Shown: positions 3,785 through 35,638 of the stretch, in pieces
How the letters are laid out: each line of letters starts with the position of its first letter
Position numbering within the stretch: position 1 is the first letter of the stretch
Source of the DNA: an uncultured Acidimicrobiales bacterium
Lineage (GTDB): Bacteria > Actinomycetota > Acidimicrobiia > Acidimicrobiales > SZUA-35
Reading direction: 5' to 3'
DNA: 35,638 nucleotides
Assembly: GCA_937922045.1 (NCBI GenBank)
Contig: CAKZXA010000067.1
Span: 1-35,638, forward strand
The notes under the pieces: generated by a model
What the model was told of the DNA's origin: nothing
Database searches by the model: none
The model's input: the letters and a program-made list of their open reading frames with translations, nothing else
Translations under genes and position numbers: made by a program

Positions 3785-4789
3785 CTAGGTTGCGTACAAC
3801 ACAGGTCGCTCCAAGCTTCGCACGACGGCTTCCTCACCATCGGCGAGCGAGGCCAGGATCGCCTCGACGACGACCTGGGCCACGAGGCCGTCCCAGGCCG
3901 ACGGGCCGGAGAAGACCCCCGAACGGATCGAGTTGACCCAGGCCTGGTCTTGGTGCCGGTAGGCATCGGCGAACCGCCCAAACCAATCGGCCCCGACCGC
4001 CACCCGGCGATCGCCGGCCTGGCGCAGAGTAGCTCTCAACGGATCACCGGTGAGAACGTCACCGTCTGCTGCCGTTGCCTCAACCGTGACGTCGTAGGCG
4101 TAGGCGGCGTCGTCGAACTCGAGAACGGCGTGAGCACCGGACACCAGGCGACAGAGGACGACGAGGTGGCGAAGAACCCCCTTGTCGTAGGCCGCGTTGG
4201 CTGTCACTGAGAAGATCTCGGATGCGCTCAGAAAGCGAACAGAATGAATGTCGTGCACTACCGACTGTCCGACAATGACCTCGACTGGTCGAGCCGCGGC
4301 GGAGGCGGTGTTGCGATGGGCGCACCGCAGAAAGTGCACAGCGCCGAGTTCGGTGAGCGCCTTCGCTAGCTGCACGTGGGCCTCGTCGTACTCGCGCATG
4401 AAGCCGAGCTGGATCGATCGGCGGCCGCTAGCCGCTTCCGCATCGACCACCCGTTGAGCGTCAGCGATCGAGGTGGCCAGCGGCTTTTCGCACAACATGG
4501 GTTTTCCTGCGGCCAGGGCGGCCAGCGCCAGCTCGGCGTGGGTCTCGTCGGGGCTGGCGATCACGACGGCATCAACATTGGCTGCGCTGGCAACGCTGTC
4601 TACATCGCGGCTGAAGGTGGCGCCCAGCTGTGCGGCCAACGCCTCTGCGTCGTCGCTGAACGGGTCGGCGATCACCGTGACCTCCGTTCCCGGTAGGGCG
4701 TGAAGGGTGTGGGCGTGGAATGTTCCCATGCCGCCAGCGCCGATGATGCCGATACGGACCCGGTCCGAAGCTGTAGCCATGGACCCCAT
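3785..4789 (-). CDS. Gfo/Idh/MocA family NAD(P)-dependent oxidoreductase
   Basis: A 334-residue protein of normal family length. It opens with the Rossmann dinucleotide motif GIIGAGGMG (residues 14-22), has the family EKP motif (101-103, whose lysine is the usual catalytic residue), and carries HDIHSVRFL (179-187) where inositol dehydrogenases hold their catalytic Asp/His pair. This suggests a soluble sugar- or cyclitol-oxidising enzyme; an inositol 2-dehydrogenase-like role is possible, but the substrate cannot be read from sequence. Two in-frame ATGs (4789 and 4780) are candidate starts, and neither has a good Shine-Dalgarno. It lies 14 nt downstream of the TetR gene on the same strand, and the large propeller gene follows within about 15 nt, so the three may be co-transcribed. 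Confidence 0.88.
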   Translation of the reverse strand: MGSMATASDRVRIGIIGAGGMGTFHAHTLHALPGTEVTVIADPFSDDAEALAAQLGATFSRDVDSVASAANVDAVVIASPDETHAELALAALAAGKPMLCEKPLATSIADAQRVVDAEAASGRRSIQLGFMREYDEAHVQLAKALTELGAVHFLRCAHRNTASAAARPVEVIVGQSVVHDIHSVRFLSASEIFSVTANAAYDKGVLRHLVVLCRLVSGAHAVLEFDDAAYAYDVTVEATAADGDVLTGDPLRATLRQAGDRRVAVGADWFGRFADAYRHQDQAWVNSIRSGVFSGPSAWDGLVAQVVVEAILASLADGEEAVVRSLERPVLYAT

Positions 4790-9603: not shown

Positions 9604-10278
9604 GTGGGCTCCGGGTCGGCGCAAAACCAGCAAATCGAGACCTCCGGTCTGGCCAGACCGGAGGTTGCTTCAGTCATCGGTCCCACGGTTCGACTGCGAC
9701 CCCCCGCACGTGACGACGTCGATTGGTTAGCTGCCATGCTGACCGATAGCGAAGCGGTGGGTGAACACAACTGGGCTGGTGTTGAACGCCGCCCGAGCCA
9801 GGTGCGGGCTGATCTCAAGCGATCGCTCAAGGCCGATGGCATGATCACCTCCGAAGATGGAACATTGATCGTTGAGCTACTGGAAGGCAACGCGCCGATT
9901 GGCTATGTGTCGTGGCGCACCGAGCAGTGGGGGCCACAAGAGGAGAGTCGCTGTCTGGCGTTTGGTGTCGCCCTCTTGCCCGAACATCGAGGCAAGGGCC
10001 ATGGCACCATCGCCCAGAGCCAGCTGATCGACTTTCTGTTCAGCGCAACCCAAGTACACCGCATCCAATCCGACACCGCCATCGACAATCCAGCCGAGCA
10101 GACAGCGCTCCGCAAGATCGGGCTCGTGGAGGAAGGGCGAGTGCGCGGTGCTGAGTATCGCAGTGGCGTGTACCACGACCATCTTCTGTTCAGTATTTTG
10201 CGCCCCGAGTGGGCGGCCCGACGGGGCGCCGCTCCCATCGAGGTCGAGGTCGAGGTCGAGGTTGACGTCGAGGGCTAG
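9604..10278 (+). CDS. GNAT family N-acetyltransferase (RimJ/RimL type)
   Basis: A 224-residue acetyltransferase. The GNAT fold begins at VRLRPPARDDVDWLAAML (about residue 29). The acetyl-CoA loop is LLPEHRGKGHGTIAQSQLI, with the R-G-K-G-H-G signature, and the C-terminal motif IDNPAEQTALRKIGLVEEG is typical of the RimJ/RimL branch that acetylates protein N-termini, amino acids or small amines. The GTG start has no Shine-Dalgarno but sits 7 nt after TAGTCT (9591-9596), indicating a leaderless transcript beginning in the gap after htpX. Two oddities: residues 13-21 are encoded by a perfect 26-bp palindrome, and the protein ends in an EVEVEVEVDVEG tail from a GAGGTC hexamer repeat. Its stop codon overlaps that of the convergent E1 gene. 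Substrate unknown. Confidence 0.87.
   Translation: MGSGSAQNQQIETSGLARPEVASVIGPTVRLRPPARDDVDWLAAMLTDSEAVGEHNWAGVERRPSQVRADLKRSLKADGMITSEDGTLIVELLEGNAPIGYVSWRTEQWGPQEESRCLAFGVALLPEHRGKGHGTIAQSQLIDFLFSATQVHRIQSDTAIDNPAEQTALRKIGLVEEGRVRGAEYRSGVYHDHLLFSILRPEWAARRGAAPIEVEVEVEVDVEG
9640..9665. repeat. Perfect 26-bp palindrome inside the GNAT coding region
   Basis: The 13-base half-site ACCTCCGGTCTGG is followed immediately by its exact reverse complement, with no spacer. It lies 55 nt downstream of the htpX stop and just inside the GNAT frame. It could form a very stable hairpin (htpX terminator or attenuator) or bind a dimeric protein. Confidence 0.85.
10240..10272. repeat. GAGGTC hexanucleotide microsatellite at the GNAT 3' end
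   Basis: Perfect and slightly diverged GAGGTC units encode the alternating Glu-Val tail of the GNAT. As a hexamer, gain or loss of units keeps the frame and only alters tail length. Confidence 0.8.
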
Positions 10279-12644
10279 GGCGTGTTCGTCGTTGTCTCGA
10301 CGGCGACCGTATCGAGAGCAACGAGGGCCGCGGTGACCAGCTGCTCGGGCAGGAGCCCAAAGAGGGCGTAGAGGTCGGTGATCGTGCCGGACTGGCCGAA
10401 GTCGTCAACACCAACGGCGGTGACGGGTTGACCGAAGACCGAGCCTAGCCATGCCATCGAATGGCTGGCCGCGTCATGCACCGTGACCAGCGGGACTCGG
10501 CGTTCGTGGGGCTCTAGTAGTTGCTGGAGATGGTGGTTCCCGATGATGCCATCGGCCCGATTGATCGCTCCCCGCTGACGGGTCAGCCACCCCTGGTAGA
10601 GCCGGCCCTGATTCGTGATGTCGAGGACGGTGGCGTTCACCCCTTCGTCGGCCAAGCCGTGAGCTGCGTGTACGACCTCGGGGAGAACCGCCCCTGACGC
10701 GGCGAAAACCACGTCGGCGGTTGCGCCCGGGGGCGGTTCGAGCAGCCGGTAACCACCGGCCAGTACGTGGCGGCGGATCTGCTCATCGCCCAGCCGAGAC
10801 CTGGCGGCGTGGAACGGGGCTTGATCGATCGGGCGGGTTGAGAGACGCAGGTAGAGCGAGGAGCCCGTCGGCTCACCGAGTTGGGCGAGGCCATCGCACA
10901 GAAGCCAATCGGTCGGCGTGGCATAGGCCGGTTCGGCGCAGGTCAACCCGGGGAGTTCGAGGCCGAGGGAGGCGGTGACCGTGCTCTGATGGGCGCCGCC
11001 TTCGGGGGCGAGAGTTACGCCGGATGGAGTTCCCACCAGCACGAAGCGAGCACCGTTGTAGAGGGCGTAGATGAGAGCGTCGAGTCCTCGACATATGAAG
11101 GGGTCATAGACGGTGCCGACGGGAAGAAGGTGCTCGCCGTGGAGGTCGTGGCCGAGGCCGAGCGCATGCAACATCAGGAAGAGATTCATTTCCGAGAGGC
11201 CGAGCTCAACGTGGCGGCCGCTGGGCCCCTGGTGCCATCGCAGCAGCCGATCGCTGCCCAAGTAGTCGGTTTGATCTACAGGGGAAAACACGCCGACCTT
11301 GTTGATCCAACCGCCCAGGTTGGTCGATACCGACACGTCGGGGGAGGTGGTCACCAGCCTGTCCCGTACCGCTTCGTCGTTAGCCAGGTTGGCCAGACTA
11401 CGACCGAAGGTCTCTTGTGTCGATACCGACTTGCTGTCGATGACCCTGGTTTCCAATGGGACGGGAACGGTAGCCGGAGACCCGGGGGGTTGGTTGTTGA
11501 TGTCGCTGCCAACGGCTTCGCACAGCTGGCCGGGGGTCGAATCGCTGGCGAAGCGATCCCATTCCCGTTCGAGGGTCAACCCGACCGAAGACCGCAGCTC
11601 ATCGATCTGTGTTGGCGAAAGTAGGGAGGCATGGTTGAGGGGGTCGCCGGCCATTGGAAGCCCCCACCCCTTGACGGTGTAGGCAAACACAACACTGGGT
11701 CGATCGGTGACCGCATCGCACGCCTGGTAGGCCCGCTGAAGTTCACCGAGGTCGTGGCCGCCAAGGTTGTGGACCAGAGCGGCTAGGTCGTCGTTTGGGA
11801 CCTGAGCCAGCCAGTCGCCGAGTTCGGCCGAGGCGTTGGCCAGAAAGCGAGATCGAAGCTCGGCACCATCGAAGGCGAACAGCGATTGGTATTCCTCGTT
11901 CGGCATGGCATCGATGTGAGCGCGTAGTTGCTCACCGCCAGGTGATGCGAACGCCTCCTGAAGACGCCGCCCATACTTTGCCTCTTCGACATGCCAGCCG
12001 GAGTCGGCAAAGAACTTCATCAGTTGGATCGCCTTCATCTCCGGGACGACGCGGTCGAGGCTCTGACGGTTGACGTCGACGATCAACATCACATTGCCGA
12101 GGTCTTTCAGGGCCGGGTCAGCGATCGCCTCCCAAATGTTGCCTTCGTCCAGTTCAGCGTCGCCGACGAGAGCGATAAACCGGCCCGGCCGGTCGCCGGG
12201 AAAGTGGGCGTTTATGTAGCGACGAGCCGCGGCGGCGAAGAGCGGTGCCACCGCGCCCAGGCCCACCGACCCGGTTGAGAAGTCGGCGACATCGGGGTCT
12301 TTCGTACGACTCGGGTAGGCCTGGAGGCCGCCGAGGGACCGAAGCTGGGTGAGATAGGACCGATCGAGCTCGCCGGTCAGATACTTGATTGCGTGGTAGA
12401 CGGGCGAGGCGTGGGGTTTGACCGCGACCTTGTCATCGCCGGTGATGTGGCCGAACCATAGGGCGGTCATGATCGACACCATCGAAGCCGACGAGGCCTG
12501 ATGGCCGCCGACCTTCACCTGGCCGCCCCCTATCTCACCGCTTGTTGGGCCACTGTCTCGTTCGGTGTTGGCCCAGTCGACCATGCGCACCGCCAGCCAC
12601 AGCACGCGTTCTTGAACCTCGGTCAGAGCGGTGAGGTTGTCCAT
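10275..12644 (-). CDS. Homodimeric pyruvate dehydrogenase E1-like / transketolase-like ThDP enzyme
   Basis: A 789-residue thiamine-diphosphate enzyme with the single-chain layout of AceE-type 2-oxoacid dehydrogenase E1, though shorter than AceE (about 890). The N-terminal block GGHQASSASMVSIMTALWFG and VKPHASPVYHAIKYLTGEL match the AceE/transketolase active-site His regions. The diphosphate motif runs from GDAELDEGNIWEAI (161 onward) to VDVNRQSLD (Asn192). The pyrimidine-binding domain begins near TQETFGRSLANLA and contains LGLSEMNLFLMLHALGLG with the likely catalytic Glu. No E2 or E3 gene is nearby, so the partner complex and substrate are uncertain. The ATG sits 7 nt after TAGCGT (12652-12657, minus), a leaderless promoter overlapping the end of the paaX-like gene. 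The 3' end shares a CTAG stop with the convergent GNAT. Confidence 0.85.
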   Translation of the reverse strand: MDNLTALTEVQERVLWLAVRMVDWANTERDSGPTSGEIGGGQVKVGGHQASSASMVSIMTALWFGHITGDDKVAVKPHASPVYHAIKYLTGELDRSYLTQLRSLGGLQAYPSRTKDPDVADFSTGSVGLGAVAPLFAAAARRYINAHFPGDRPGRFIALVGDAELDEGNIWEAIADPALKDLGNVMLIVDVNRQSLDRVVPEMKAIQLMKFFADSGWHVEEAKYGRRLQEAFASPGGEQLRAHIDAMPNEEYQSLFAFDGAELRSRFLANASAELGDWLAQVPNDDLAALVHNLGGHDLGELQRAYQACDAVTDRPSVVFAYTVKGWGLPMAGDPLNHASLLSPTQIDELRSSVGLTLEREWDRFASDSTPGQLCEAVGSDINNQPPGSPATVPVPLETRVIDSKSVSTQETFGRSLANLANDEAVRDRLVTTSPDVSVSTNLGGWINKVGVFSPVDQTDYLGSDRLLRWHQGPSGRHVELGLSEMNLFLMLHALGLGHDLHGEHLLPVGTVYDPFICRGLDALIYALYNGARFVLVGTPSGVTLAPEGGAHQSTVTASLGLELPGLTCAEPAYATPTDWLLCDGLAQLGEPTGSSLYLRLSTRPIDQAPFHAARSRLGDEQIRRHVLAGGYRLLEPPPGATADVVFAASGAVLPEVVHAAHGLADEGVNATVLDITNQGRLYQGWLTRQRGAINRADGIIGNHHLQQLLEPHERRVPLVTVHDAASHSMAWLGSVFGQPVTAVGVDDFGQSGTITDLYALFGLLPEQLVTAALVALDTVAVETTTNTP

Positions 12645-12654
12645 AGGACCAACG

Positions 12655-13440
12655 CTAGCTGTCGGATTCCAACTCTTGCCACCATGCTTGCGCTGGAGAT
12701 GACCAGGCCTTCCGTCGAGCTGCGAAAACTGCTGCCGCCTGCGTTCCTGGCCATCCCGAGGGGAGGAGCTCGAGTGGGAGTTCGGGGTCTTGAAGCGGGA
12801 AGATGCGCCACTGGTCGACGAGTTCGATCAGCTCGGCGGCCGTTTCAGACGCGGCCATTGCTCGCTCTGAGCCGAAACGATCGGTGAAGGCTGTGTAGCG
12901 GGCGGCCACGTCATCCAGTTCCCAAAGATCCGAGACGGAGGTAGGGCCGAGTGGCAATGCTCCGGCTTGTCCGATGAAGGTCTGCCCGGCGATATCGAGT
13001 TCTCGGAGCTCTTCGACGGCCTGTTTCTCTCGGCTCGGGTCGGGACTGATCCAAACACCGGGTGCCATCGGCGCCAAACCGCACCAAGCCATCCGAGTCC
13101 GTAGGCGATGTCGAGCTTCGCGAGCGGGCTCGGTGGAGGTTATGACCAGGAGCCAATCGCCGTCCCACTCTGTCTGTGGCTGTCCGAATTCATAGATGCG
13201 GCCAGCTCCTTCGGCCAGCAGGCGTACACCGCTGTCGGTTAGATGGCAGCGCGCCTGGCGGCCTACCCGTTCGGTGCTGATCCAGCCGGCTCGGCCCGTT
13301 CGCAGGATGGCCTGACGGCCCGATCGTTCGGAAACGTCGACCAAGCCTAGGGCCTTCAGAATCGTCGAGGTCCAAGCCTGTTGCCCGTTCGGCAGGACGA
13401 ATTCGCCGAGCACGGTGAGCAGGTAGGACGATGCACTCAT
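12655..13440 (-). CDS. PaaX family transcriptional regulator
   Basis: A 261-residue regulator. It begins with the family hallmark SASSYLLTVLGEFVLPNGQQAW, then a winged helix (SERSGRQAILRTGRAGWI, STERVGRQARCHLTDSG) and the PaaX central domain (GDWLLVITSTEPAREARHRLR), followed by the C-terminal domain ending in a W-rich tail. PaaX-type proteins repress aromatic-acid catabolism and respond to aryl-CoA thioesters. That fits the upstream genes for an aryl-CoA ligase and a hydrolase: a ligase product could be the inducer. The ATG is 18 nt after the hydrolase stop, within an 11-bp direct repeat, so co-transcription with ligase and hydrolase is likely. The effector is inferred from the family and neighbours. 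Confidence 0.9.
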   Translation of the reverse strand: MSASSYLLTVLGEFVLPNGQQAWTSTILKALGLVDVSERSGRQAILRTGRAGWISTERVGRQARCHLTDSGVRLLAEGAGRIYEFGQPQTEWDGDWLLVITSTEPAREARHRLRTRMAWCGLAPMAPGVWISPDPSREKQAVEELRELDIAGQTFIGQAGALPLGPTSVSDLWELDDVAARYTAFTDRFGSERAMAASETAAELIELVDQWRIFPLQDPELPLELLPSGWPGTQAAAVFAARRKAWSSPAQAWWQELESDS

Positions 13441-22966: not shown

Positions 22967-23920
22967 TCAGGCGCCGGTAGCCCACTGCATATCTCGAAAG
23001 CTGGCGAACCGTCGCTCGGCGGCTCGCCGTACGCGCTCGTCTCGATCCCTGGTGAGGCGTACGAGGTGTCGCCGGTCTGTCAACCGCCCGGTGGCGGCAA
23101 CTCGAACGAGTGGGTCGGCATGGTTGGTGAGGCGCACGAGGAGGGCCTGATCATCGAGCCGTCCAAAGGCAGCGACACGGACGCGTTCGTTACCTTCTAT
23201 AGCGAGGCGAGCCAGAGCCTCCTGGTCGGTTAGACGATCAAACGCTGCTGCTCGGATTTCCGAGTTGGAGCTCATCGCAAGCTCGGCTAGTTGGCCTTGA
23301 TCGGTTAGCCGGGCAAAGGCTTGCTCTTGCACGACTGGATCATGATCGGTGGCCAGTTCAGCCAAGAGACGCTGGTCGTGAATCTTGCCGATGGCTGCGA
23401 GCCGAACGTTGAGGTTTGAGTCGTATGCTTGTGTCGCCCAACGGCCTTCATCCTCAAGCCGTTCAGATTCGGTCTGCAGCTCCTCGTGGGGATCATGCAG
23501 AATCTCCGAGTGCTTGGTTGTGACACGGAAGCCGTTGCGTTGCTCGAACTCGCTCACGCCATCATTCATCTCGCCGTTGGCGAGACGATCTCGAAGTGGT
23601 GGGCCGGTTACGATCATGCGGTCGACGGTTGTCGACAGATGATCGATTGCGTCAGCCAAGTTTTCCGACTCTTCAGAGGCTGAAGCATCGAATACGCCGG
23701 ATGCGGCGGCAGGAATCATCATCGACAATGCCGCCATCGTGACCGATGTATTGCTCAACCGATCATAGATGCGGCGCAGATCTTCCTTGATTGAGGGAAG
23801 TGCCACGATTCGAGGATCACTGAGTAGTGCCTCGATATCTCGGTTTACTTCATCAACTCTGGTGGCCGTCGATGCAGCGTGATTTGCTAGTTTCTGGATT
23901 TGGTGGTTCGTGGATGCCAC
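22967..23920 (-). CDS. HEAT/LRV-like repeat protein, function unknown
   Basis: A 317-residue protein. The C-terminal half (about 165-305) is built of repeated units of about 23-24 residues with the consensus RLTDQxxLxxLAxxxxxxVRxAAxx, for example RLTDQEALARLAIEGNERVRVAAFG and RLDDQALLVRLTNHADPLVRVAATG. These form alpha-helical solenoids like HEAT or LRV (leucine-rich variant) repeats and usually mediate protein binding. The N-terminal half is helical and polar, with one hydrophobic stretch (VTMAALSMMIPAAASGVF, about 59-76). The GTG start at 23920 has no Shine-Dalgarno; a TAGTAG hexamer lies 6 nt upstream. It sits next to the AT-richest stretch of the window, so it may be a recent acquisition. 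No named family recognised. Confidence 0.75.
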   Translation of the reverse strand: MASTNHQIQKLANHAASTATRVDEVNRDIEALLSDPRIVALPSIKEDLRRIYDRLSNTSVTMAALSMMIPAAASGVFDASASEESENLADAIDHLSTTVDRMIVTGPPLRDRLANGEMNDGVSEFEQRNGFRVTTKHSEILHDPHEELQTESERLEDEGRWATQAYDSNLNVRLAAIGKIHDQRLLAELATDHDPVVQEQAFARLTDQGQLAELAMSSNSEIRAAAFDRLTDQEALARLAIEGNERVRVAAFGRLDDQALLVRLTNHADPLVRVAATGRLTDRRHLVRLTRDRDERVRRAAERRFASFRDMQWATGA

Positions 23921-24165: not shown

Positions 24166-25277
24166 TCAGCCGCGGATGTGGCGGTTCACGATAGCTTCCA
24201 CTTCGCCCGAGGCTTGAAGGTCGGCAATGACCATATTGATTGGTTCTCGCCAGGGCGAGTCTTGGATCAGACCGAAGGTTTCGAACTCTTGGTCGAGCAC
24301 GTCGCCGGCTGGAATGACGCCGTACTGGGAGCCGATCGCCGACATGGCGAAGGGTTTGCCACCACGATGTCGACCTCCTCGTTGGCCACAGCGGCAAATG
24401 CTTCGAGTTGGCTTTGGTAACCAATGGTGTTGACACCGAGGTCGAGGAGGTAGGCCTCAAACGAGGTGGCTTCGACCACGGCCACAGAACGACCGTCGTT
24501 GTCATCGACCCCACGGAGCGGGGTGATGGCTCTCGATTCCGAGAGCACCGTGGTCATCTGGGAGACGAAGGCGCCGACCAGCACCAGACTGAGCGCCATG
24601 ACGATGAGGCCGATGCCGCGGCCGAGCGGTGATTTGGGTGTGCGGTCTCCGTAACCAACCGTTGTGGCCGTCACCATCGTCCACCACACGCGATCCCACA
24701 AGCCCGTCCGGTAGCTGCTGTGGAAGTGATCCTCTGGACCATCCTCGTCCTCGTTGCGCTCCACGATCCAAATGAGATGGCCGATAGCGACGACACCGAT
24801 CATGGCATAGAGGAGGAGCGGTAAGACCCGGGCATCGAGCAGGGCCTGAAGAATCGAGGTGCCCCCGACGAGACGGTCGGCGTAGCCGAGCTGAGGCCCC
24901 GAGCTGATGACGGCTGAGGTGAAGTCGAAGTTCGCCTCGCGCTCTGCTGTTGGCGCCAGCGGTGCGACGGCAACGTCGGCTTCACCGGCATCGAGGGCTT
25001 CGAGGAGCAGAGGAAACGAATCAACCCAGATGATGTTGTAGTTCACGCCCAGCTCGCTTGCTACCTCGGCCCAGATCTCGGCGTAGAAGCCATCGGCATC
25101 GCCGTCGTCGTCGATGATGAACGGTTCCAGCTCGGTCATGACGACCCGAAGCGTCGTGCCGGTGGCTGTGTCGGTGTCGGACTGGGCCGCTCCCCGAGGT
25201 GCGCCGAGGAAGAAGGCGGCGACCATAACGACGAAGATGGTCAGGAAGATGATCGAGAACCTGGGCGAAAGTTTCAC
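24166..25277 (-). CDS. GluR0-type ligand-gated K+ channel, frame interrupted at a slippery heptamer
   Basis: A periplasmic-binding domain split by a pore, as in prokaryotic ionotropic glutamate receptors. A signal peptide (about 1-31) precedes lobe S1 (40-145), which has the ligand Arg in APTAEREANFDFTS. Then come M1 (150-172), a P-loop with K+ filter TVGYGD (206-211), M2 (221-245) and lobe S2. The GTG at 25277 has AAGGG at 6 nt spacing and directly precedes the signal peptide; an in-frame ATG further upstream (25394) is less likely. The zero frame leaves the family sequence at A AAC CCT (24351-24357) and stops at 24267. The -1 frame continues perfectly as PFAMSAIGSQYGVIPAGD to IVNRHIRG and stops at 24166, completing S2 (about 370 residues). 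Either a one-base loss, a sequencing error or programmed -1 frameshifting. The ligand is unknown. Confidence 0.85.
24351..24357 (-). other. Candidate -1 ribosomal frameshift site A AAC CCT
   Basis: Read on the minus strand in the zero frame of the channel gene (codon GCA begins at 24359), the bases are A AAC CCT. This has the X XXY YYZ form in the correct register for tandem -1 slippage, and the -1 frame immediately resumes the conserved receptor sequence. A GAGGAGG stretch lies 16 nt upstream, and a small TCGCC-N5-GGCGA hairpin begins right after the site. Confidence 0.45.
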
Positions 25278-25464
25278 GGTGAACCCTTGATAGGCATCTG
25301 CATGCTGAAGTAGCCGGAGCTTAGTTGATGAAGGTCGCGCGCTTCGATAGGGGCTTGCGGCCGAGCGCTGGAACCGTGGGCGTTCAAGCCCCATGTTGTG
25401 GAGTGCGGCTATGAAGACAGGATCGGCCTAAGGCGCTCCTGCTGTTCCCAGAAGGCCATGACAT

Positions 25465-33946: not shown

Positions 33947-34600
33947 TCAATCAGATGCCAACGCCGATGCAAGGTACGAGGAGATATCGGGGGTGGGCAG
34001 TGGTGACAGTGACCGAGTTTCATGCCACTGGTCGGCTTGGCGATTCCAGGAAGCGGCCCGCAGCGTACCATCGGCGGCCATTTCGTTAGCCCACTGTATG
34101 CAGTCGTCGATCGTGGCGAAGCGGTACTCGACGAACCCGAAGCCGGGGGCCGCGGAGTCGGTGGTGGCGATGGCGACGAGGACGACACCGTGCGGGCCAA
34201 CCCGGAGCGTGACGCTGGCCTGGGTGGCCGGTGACCGCAGGAGAACAAGCCGGGAGCTGCGGGCCCGGGCGGTAGCGATGGCGGCGTAGACCCCGGTGGG
34301 TGGGCTCGGGTTTTCGCCGGTAGCGGTGACCGGCGGGTGGCCGCTGTGGTGGAGGTCGATGTAGCGCTCGGCCACGGCAGCCACCACGGCGAGCTGGTCG
34401 TCGGTCAGTGAAGAAATGCGGGGAAACTCATCGAACGGGGTCTCGGGTAGATCGGGTTCGTCGCAGCCGAGAATGTTGACGTCGTTGAACGCGCCACACA
34501 TCTCGGGCCCGCTTCCCCCGGCGCTGGTCGGTGCCAGCGCTCGTTCGAGCTCGGCCCAGTTCAGTTCAAGCGTTGACTCGTCGAGGTAGTCGAGGATCAT
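33947..34600 (-). CDS. Hypothetical protein, coupled to the upstream unknown gene
   Basis: A 217-residue protein of unknown function. It starts MILDYLDESTLELNWAELE and carries three Cys-containing or Pro-rich segments (MCGAFNDVNILGCDEPDLPE). It then has a helix with VAAVAERYIDLHHSGHPPV, a predicted alpha/beta segment (ASVTLRVGPHGVVLVAIATTD) and a WANEMAADGTLRAASWNRQ region. No signal peptide or membrane helix is apparent. The ATG at 34600 overlaps the stop codon of the upstream gene (ATGA), so the two are translated together and probably work together. An upstream in-frame ATG at 34705 would overlap the other gene and is not preferred. No family recognised. Confidence 0.7.
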   Translation of the reverse strand: MILDYLDESTLELNWAELERALAPTSAGGSGPEMCGAFNDVNILGCDEPDLPETPFDEFPRISSLTDDQLAVVAAVAERYIDLHHSGHPPVTATGENPSPPTGVYAAIATARARSSRLVLLRSPATQASVTLRVGPHGVVLVAIATTDSAAPGFGFVEYRFATIDDCIQWANEMAADGTLRAASWNRQADQWHETRSLSPLPTPDISSYLASALASD

Positions 34601-35638
34601 GGCGCAGTGGCCCTTTCTGGGGATGTTGAGGGGGACGTCGAAGCGAGGAAGTCGGTGAGGTAGTTCGAGAGTGGATCGAAACCGGTGGTGCGAAGCCGAA
34701 CCCATGTCCCGCCGTCGTCGTCGACAGGGATCAGTTCTGAAAGCCAGAGCGCATCGGGCGTTTCGTAGAGAGCGAGTTCCCGTTCGGTTGTCGTTCCGTC
34801 GGCGTGTTGTTCCTGAACATAGAGTTGCGTGGTCTGTGCCGCGCCTGCTTGGAGCTGGTCGAGAAAGGCCAGAGTCGCTGGCTCGTCCTCGGGATCCTTG
34901 AGGAGCTCCTCGTGCACGTCGGGTCGGGCGCCCGCCTGTTTAGCCAACCATTGGCCCGCCGCGATTCGATCACAAAAGGTCATGTCGTGGTAGCCCATGA
35001 TGCCGATGGTTTCCATGAGGAACCAGTCGGGGAAGAATTGGTAAAGCACGGTTCGGAACGCTGGCGTGTTCTGAATCGAAGCGTCGACAATGGCCACGAG
35101 GTCGACGTTGGAGCGGGCCTGGATGACCACCTCGACCGGGTCGGCGGTGGCGGCGATCTTGTCGCCATCGAAGAGTATGAGCTCTTCGGCCGCCAGGTTG
35201 CGCCGGGCCTCAGCTACCGCCACGGCTTGCTGCTCGGCGTCGAGCGACGACAACCACGGCATGGTTTCCGCGTCGATCTCGCCAGACCAGGCCGCTACCT
35301 CTTCATCGCTGTAGCGGCCAGCTTCGATGACCTGGCCTCGTTGAAGGCAAGCTTGCAGCTCGGCGAAGGCATCGCCCGCCCCTGGCTTTGTGAGCTGCTC
35401 GGCCAGGTCGACAATGTCGAGGTTGAGGCTGAGATCGATTGTGGGTTGTGGGTTGTTGTTTGTCATTGGTCGGAGCCTGAGTTTGTTGATTGTTGTGACG
35501 TTTGGTGCTGTGAGGTTAGGGGGTGTTTGTTGGTTGCCGGGGGTGGTGGTGTGGAAGGTGTTGTTGCCGGTGATGGTGGTGGGGTTTGGGTGGTTGGTGA
35601 GCATCTGGTCGAAGGCGTTTTGGAAGTTGGTGGGGTTG
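34597..35638 (-). CDS. Hypothetical protein, reading frame open to the window edge
   Basis: An unknown protein. From the ATG at 35466 it has 289 residues: a polar N-terminus (MTNNNPQPTIDLSLNLDIV), a helical domain (LDAEQQAVAVAEARRNLAAEEL, then VDLVAIVDASIQNTPAFRTV), an aromatic segment (FFPDWFLMETIGIMGYHDMTF) and an alpha/beta C-terminus with TQLYVQEQHADG. The same frame is open without a stop to the window edge through a strongly C/A-rich region with C-rich third positions, encoding Asn/Thr/Pro-rich sequence (NPTTITGNNTFHTTTPGN). So the true start may lie beyond the window and the gene may be longer. Alternatively a different frame ends at TGA overlapping the 35466 ATG. Coupled by ATGA to the gene downstream. 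No family recognised. Confidence 0.6.
   Translation of the reverse strand, partial: NPTNFQNAFDQMLTNHPNPTTITGNNTFHTTTPGNQQTPPNLTAPNVTTINKLRLRPMTNNNPQPTIDLSLNLDIVDLAEQLTKPGAGDAFAELQACLQRGQVIEAGRYSDEEVAAWSGEIDAETMPWLSSLDAEQQAVAVAEARRNLAAEELILFDGDKIAATADPVEVVIQARSNVDLVAIVDASIQNTPAFRTVLYQFFPDWFLMETIGIMGYHDMTFCDRIAAGQWLAKQAGARPDVHEELLKDPEDEPATLAFLDQLQAGAAQTTQLYVQEQHADGTTTERELALYETPDALWLSELIPVDDDGGTWVRLRTTGFDPLSNYLTDFLASTSPSTSPERATAP

Follow-up and report, generated by a model that had tools for sequence, protein, structure and literature searches.

In the window, a stretch of 35,638 nucleotides from an uncultured Acidimicrobiales bacterium, a minus-strand gene predicted to encode a GluR0-like, ligand-gated K+-channel receptor changes reading frame inside the S2 lobe of its ligand domain. 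The most likely cause is an ordinary one, recent breakage of the gene or an isolated error in the sequence, and not deliberate frameshifting. Between the first two we favor a real private mutation, which would place the change in the organism's own DNA and leave an inactive product. One base would have been lost recently from the codon that follows the ligand-pocket residue in S2, putting translation into the wrong frame and ending it 28 codons later. The product would keep S1, the pore and the first half of S2 without the second half, and this loss would make the gene a young, private pseudogene.

Gene layout and position of the frame break

From a GTG start at 25277 the zero frame is continuous to codon 308 (AAC, 24356-24354), in the order signal peptide, S1, M1, TTVGYGD pore, M2 and first half of S2, ending ...VDIVVAN. 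After this codon it reads PSPCRRSAPS..., 28 codons that are unrelated to the receptor except for the first (Pro), and a stop that ends at 24267 gives a product of 336 aa. The receptor sequence is carried in the -1 frame as PFAMSAIGSQYGVIP... to a stop at 24168-24166, and reading through the two frames gives a protein of 370 aa. A codon-periodic (three-periodic) Markov scan, which is independent of homology and was trained on long ORFs of the same assembly, located the switch at 24350. The coding score of the zero frame is negative beyond 24354, each frame is coding-like on its own side of the switch, and the -1 frame is 54-80% identical to ten orthologues across 57-61 residues, more than chance. 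The frame switch is real in the assembly sequence.

These results agree with the preliminary description, in which the zero frame left the receptor after VDIVVA and the -1 frame resumed it to 24166. Its account of an X XXY YYZ heptamer in exact zero-frame register, with GAGGAGG 16 nt upstream, was also correct (Table 1). The hairpin that it placed directly after the heptamer exists as a 5-bp stem but does not stand up as a stimulator, its stability being no greater than that of shuffled sequence at any of four lengths (z -0.71, -0.52, -0.16 and -0.79).

Table 1 Features of the channel gene around the frame break (window coordinates)
Feature	Position	Strand	Evidence
Zero-frame part, GTG to AAC codon 308	24354..25277	-	Translation; Pfam; 2pyy match
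Zero-frame continuation past the break, 28 codons then stop, not coding-like	24267..24353	-	Translation; coding score
-1-frame continuation PFAMSAIG... to stop, second half of S2, conserved in orthologues	24166..24354	-	Translation; orthologues
A AAC CCT, slippery-type heptamer in register; missing-base site	24351..24357	-	Translation; orthologues
GAGGAGG, Shine-Dalgarno (SD)-like, 16 nt 5' of the heptamer, inside Glu-Glu-Val codons	24374..24380	-	Sequence
5-bp hairpin directly after the heptamer	24336..24350	-	Folding against shuffles

Identity as a GluR0-like receptor

The read-through protein matches the Pfam families SBP_bac_3 (residues 48-368) and, nested inside it, Ion_trans_2 (residues 190-246). 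Among PDB entries it matches 2pyy best (E 4.9e-21), a bacterial homologue of ionotropic glutamate receptors, in two aligned pieces that flank the pore (residues 45-132 and 253-365). A TVGYG K+ selectivity filter lies at residue 206, and the S1-M1-P-M2-S2 architecture is present, with a two-helix pore domain inserted into a periplasmic-binding-like ligand domain. Together these matches support the original assignment of the gene as a putative GluR0-like K+-channel receptor. The single intact frame of such channels is missing here, the frame breaking after codon 308.

The likeness to GluR0 of Synechocystis and to 2pyy extends to the order of S1, M1, P loop, M2 and S2, the TVGYG filter and the conserved Arg of S1 (Arg113). 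Two differences stand out: the S2 pocket column holds Asp in 2pyy, as in most relatives, whereas it is Asn308 here, and unlike GluR0 and 2pyy this copy is frame-broken just past the residue-308 codon. We take Arg113 and the residue-308 column to be ligand-pocket positions, from their roles in glutamate-receptor structures. The break directly follows the codon aligned to the 2pyy Asp (VVFD in 2pyy, VVAN here), and the zero-frame product therefore loses about half of S2. An AlphaFold model of one orthologue (L042), built from a two-row alignment, had a mean pLDDT of 40.5 and was too poor to use.

In a study of Synechocystis GluR0, a construct without both soluble domains was non-functional, and so was one in which two dimer residues had been substituted at once, the C-terminal domain contributing one of the pair (PMC13099474). 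By analogy the 336-aa product, which lacks half of S2 alone, would probably not be a working channel.

The frame is open in all orthologues found

Relatives were searched in overlapping sets of 12 genomes for the genus, 39 for the family, 397 for the order and 395 for the class, the last two being samples of larger groups. Orthologues were found in ten genomes at E <= 1e-95 (G001, G008, G010, G024, G305, G413, G179, G064, G173 and G142) and in one more distant genome at 5e-83 (G602). All comparisons are with other species, the nearest two at ~71-73% protein identity. The frame is open through the break site in 11/11. In eight of them the site reads AAC or AAT, then CCN, then TTY; two others have AGC CCG TTT and TCG CCG TTC, and the distant one has GAC CGA TAC. 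The contig search gave one relative (L042), identical across the 100-nt probe tested to L014, the orthologue of the same-genus genome G008.

Conservation of the heptamer in register had been proposed as a check on programmed frameshifting, and A AAC CCT is absent in all 11 orthologues, as is GAGGAGG at the aligned position. Continuous frames in relatives had been named as the outcome that would speak for an error or a private mutation, and they are found throughout, in species at ~71-73% identity or less. The one-base deletion or error, which the preliminary description offered as the simpler alternative, is thus the better reading. Finding a slippery-type motif where a frame breaks does not in itself point to programming; comparison with relatives decides. 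The break resembles private frameshift pseudogenes, such as the pseudogene clusters and singletons of Antonov et al. (2013; PMC3711429), in that its frame transition is absent from orthologues and it has no conserved recoding motif; it differs in happening to leave an in-register slippery-type heptamer.

Four further genomes (G108, G246, G302 and G410), whose matches in the order search end near residue 312, were considered as possible carriers of a shared frameshift and rejected, their frames being unbroken and their C-termini diverged.

Age of the lesion and decay in the family

Codons past the break are conserved about as strongly as those before it. For the nearest two orthologues, dN over codons 310-370 and codons 41-308 is 0.133 and 0.198 (L013) and 0.180 and 0.191 (L014), and comparisons between intact orthologues give a similar before-and-after pattern. 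Equal constraint on the two sides means that the lesion is young, or is present in the assembly only, or that the downstream frame is still decoded, and the dN comparison alone does not separate these three.

Elsewhere in family f1 the gene also appears to have decayed. Two genomes hold short pieces that are probably orthologous remnants: in G009 (L028 1501-1762) residues up to 55 are joined out of frame to 341-368, and in G023 (L026 1478-1836) residues ~5 to 92 are joined out of frame to 336-368. With the window genome, 3/7 genomes of the family that have the gene carry a broken copy; the intact copies are in G001, G008, G010 and G024.

Sequence error as the source of the break

That the organism's gene is intact, and that the base is missing only in the draft or in a minor merged strain, is possible and on balance unlikely. 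The draft is in 128 contigs, the normal constraint past the break is what an intact gene would have, and in the orthologue L014 the site contains four consecutive C, a context prone to loss of a base. Such a run is nevertheless short for a sequencing error, and the rest of the assembly gives little sign of similar events. Its coding potential was scanned in 12 stretches from 12 other contigs (178,661 nt) and in the window, 214,299 nt in total. The first cut-offs (> 12 nats on both sides) returned no candidates and also missed the known event. Loosened ones (> 6 on both sides, contrast > 10), which recovered 273/524 simulated deletions (about 52%) made in the model's own training genes, returned 11 candidates, four in the window, including the channel-gene break, and seven outside.

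None of the seven outside candidates was established as a frameshift. Two, near 12613 in L069 and near 4816 in L068, were rejected as separate genes with different Pfam families. The other five, characterized by position only, are located 3-16 nt ahead of a stop, an arrangement typical of neighboring genes; counting a window candidate at 3808 with them, the distance is 3-21 nt before the stop of the first gene. The candidate near 34643 in the window is most likely a pair of adjacent genes rather than a frameshift, since two paralogues on contig C37 are arranged in the same way. For the last, at 10296, Pfam recognizes transketolase domains to one side of the putative switch and nothing to the other. 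Indels do not seem to be widespread in the assembly, and a real mutation is favored over a noisy assembly.

Slippage at the heptamer

A point against the mutation reading is the heptamer itself. Among random one-base deletions in the ten orthologue genes, an in-register X XXY YYZ heptamer fell at the deletion in 33/9729 and within 6 nt in 73/9729; for genes sampled from the assembly (20,000 deletions) the figures were 0.54% and 1.1%. Chance would therefore supply such a motif at ~0.3-1.1% of random deletions, an unusual coincidence that favors slippage, with the caveat that a reader of the sequence would have accepted other motifs too. In-register heptamers occur at 0.57 per kb (92 in 162,675 nt of 131 ORFs), with A_AAC_CCN found 8 times. 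The single A_AAC_CCT among these ORFs is probably the break-site heptamer itself, since ORF 24267-25394 contains an in-register A AAC CCT. In our judgement two things outweigh the coincidence: no orthologue found has the heptamer, and programmed shifts are rare.

Slippage could matter in two ways. The gene might be broken and the heptamer allow a low level of slippage, yielding a little full-length channel as an accidental rescue with no selected program. We consider this very unlikely. In an E. coli survey of 64 heptamers, 39/64 shifted at more than twice background without stimulators, a count for the whole set (PMC4066793), and against this the motif here belongs to a poor class. In the same survey, CCN codons are weaker shifters than UUN and AAN, and heptamers are by and large better with X and Z both purines or both pyrimidines (PMC4066793). 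The break-site heptamer mixes purine and pyrimidine (A and C), the by-and-large poorer class in E. coli.

Alternatively, programmed -1 frameshifting at this heptamer, recent in origin and specific to this species, would set the ratio of a half-S2 to a complete channel. It might have arisen by loss of a base beside a chance slippery site and been retained from then on, and we regard it as very improbable. The heptamer stands in register exactly at the switch, GAGGAGG and an adjoining hairpin are in place, and both frames are coding-like on their own sides. With the IS3 pseudoknot, 61/64 of the E. coli heptamers shifted at more than twice background, so A_AA.C_CC.U would be among them, and the all-pyrimidine CCU is one of two in the better half of the CCN codons (PMC4066793). 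Against this, CCN is the poorer class, A_AA.C_CC.A failed even with that pseudoknot, the strongest stimulator, and A_AA.C_CC.U is missing from the motifs named as efficient in the part of the survey drawn on (PMC4066793). The lack of heptamer, aligned GAGGAGG or broken frame in every orthologue, the unremarkable hairpin and a truncated product without half of S2 argue further against programming. In dnaX, the spacing from SD sequence to heptamer is shorter than the 16 nt found here.

Like dnaX and the IS3/IS911 transposases, the gene has an in-register X XXY YYZ heptamer and an upstream SD-like sequence. It differs from them in that the heptamer is not conserved in the 11 orthologues and is of a weak motif class, in its ordinary hairpin, and in not being a mobile element. 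A programmed shift, if true, would be the first example of recoding known to us in a bacterial gene for a ligand-gated ion channel. The GeneTack survey predicted 206,991 frame transitions and placed 4302 of them in the 146 clusters that carry recoding motifs; among groups already known for programmed frameshifting, transposases were the largest (PMC3711429).

Two other mechanisms were set aside. For transcriptional slippage the break site offers neither a long A stretch nor a long T stretch, and re-initiation at the -1-frame ATG (24345), which would yield a 59-aa fragment from an SD-like sequence 28 nt upstream, was rejected by inspection.

The S2 pocket residue and the pore filter across relatives

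At the S2 pocket column (window 24354-24356 and loci L013-L016, L043-L048 and L077), the orthologue clade has Asn in 8/11, Ser in 2/11 and Asp in one, the distant L077. Among 26 more distant relatives compared by eye, Asp is present in 23 (with an alignment gap next to it in four), two have Asn (L017 and L018) and one is not covered. Asn or Ser in this clade, where distant relatives mostly have Asp, suggests that its members may bind a different ligand. Five GluR0-like relatives of the same family (L039, L020, L023, L024 and L025) have TGGEA aligned at the column of the TVGYG filter, and possibly form pores that are not K+-selective, or are not channels. For channel evolution it may be of interest that a subfamily of GluR0 type carries Asn or Ser instead of the pocket Asp and has broken copies in several genomes of a single family.

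Other genes in the window

The transketolase-like gene at 9877-12827 is overlapped by a 175-aa frame without a Pfam match, and a frame switch near 10296 is possible there. Two adjacent minus-strand genes at 33947-35637 have no Pfam match; their paralogues lie side by side on contig C37, with open frames that overlap by 34 nt, and the first ~40 residues of the first gene have further matches on contig C43 and close to the end of contig C50. Downstream of the channel gene, the gene at 22967-23920 contains HEAT-like repeats (PF02985, E 8e-7).
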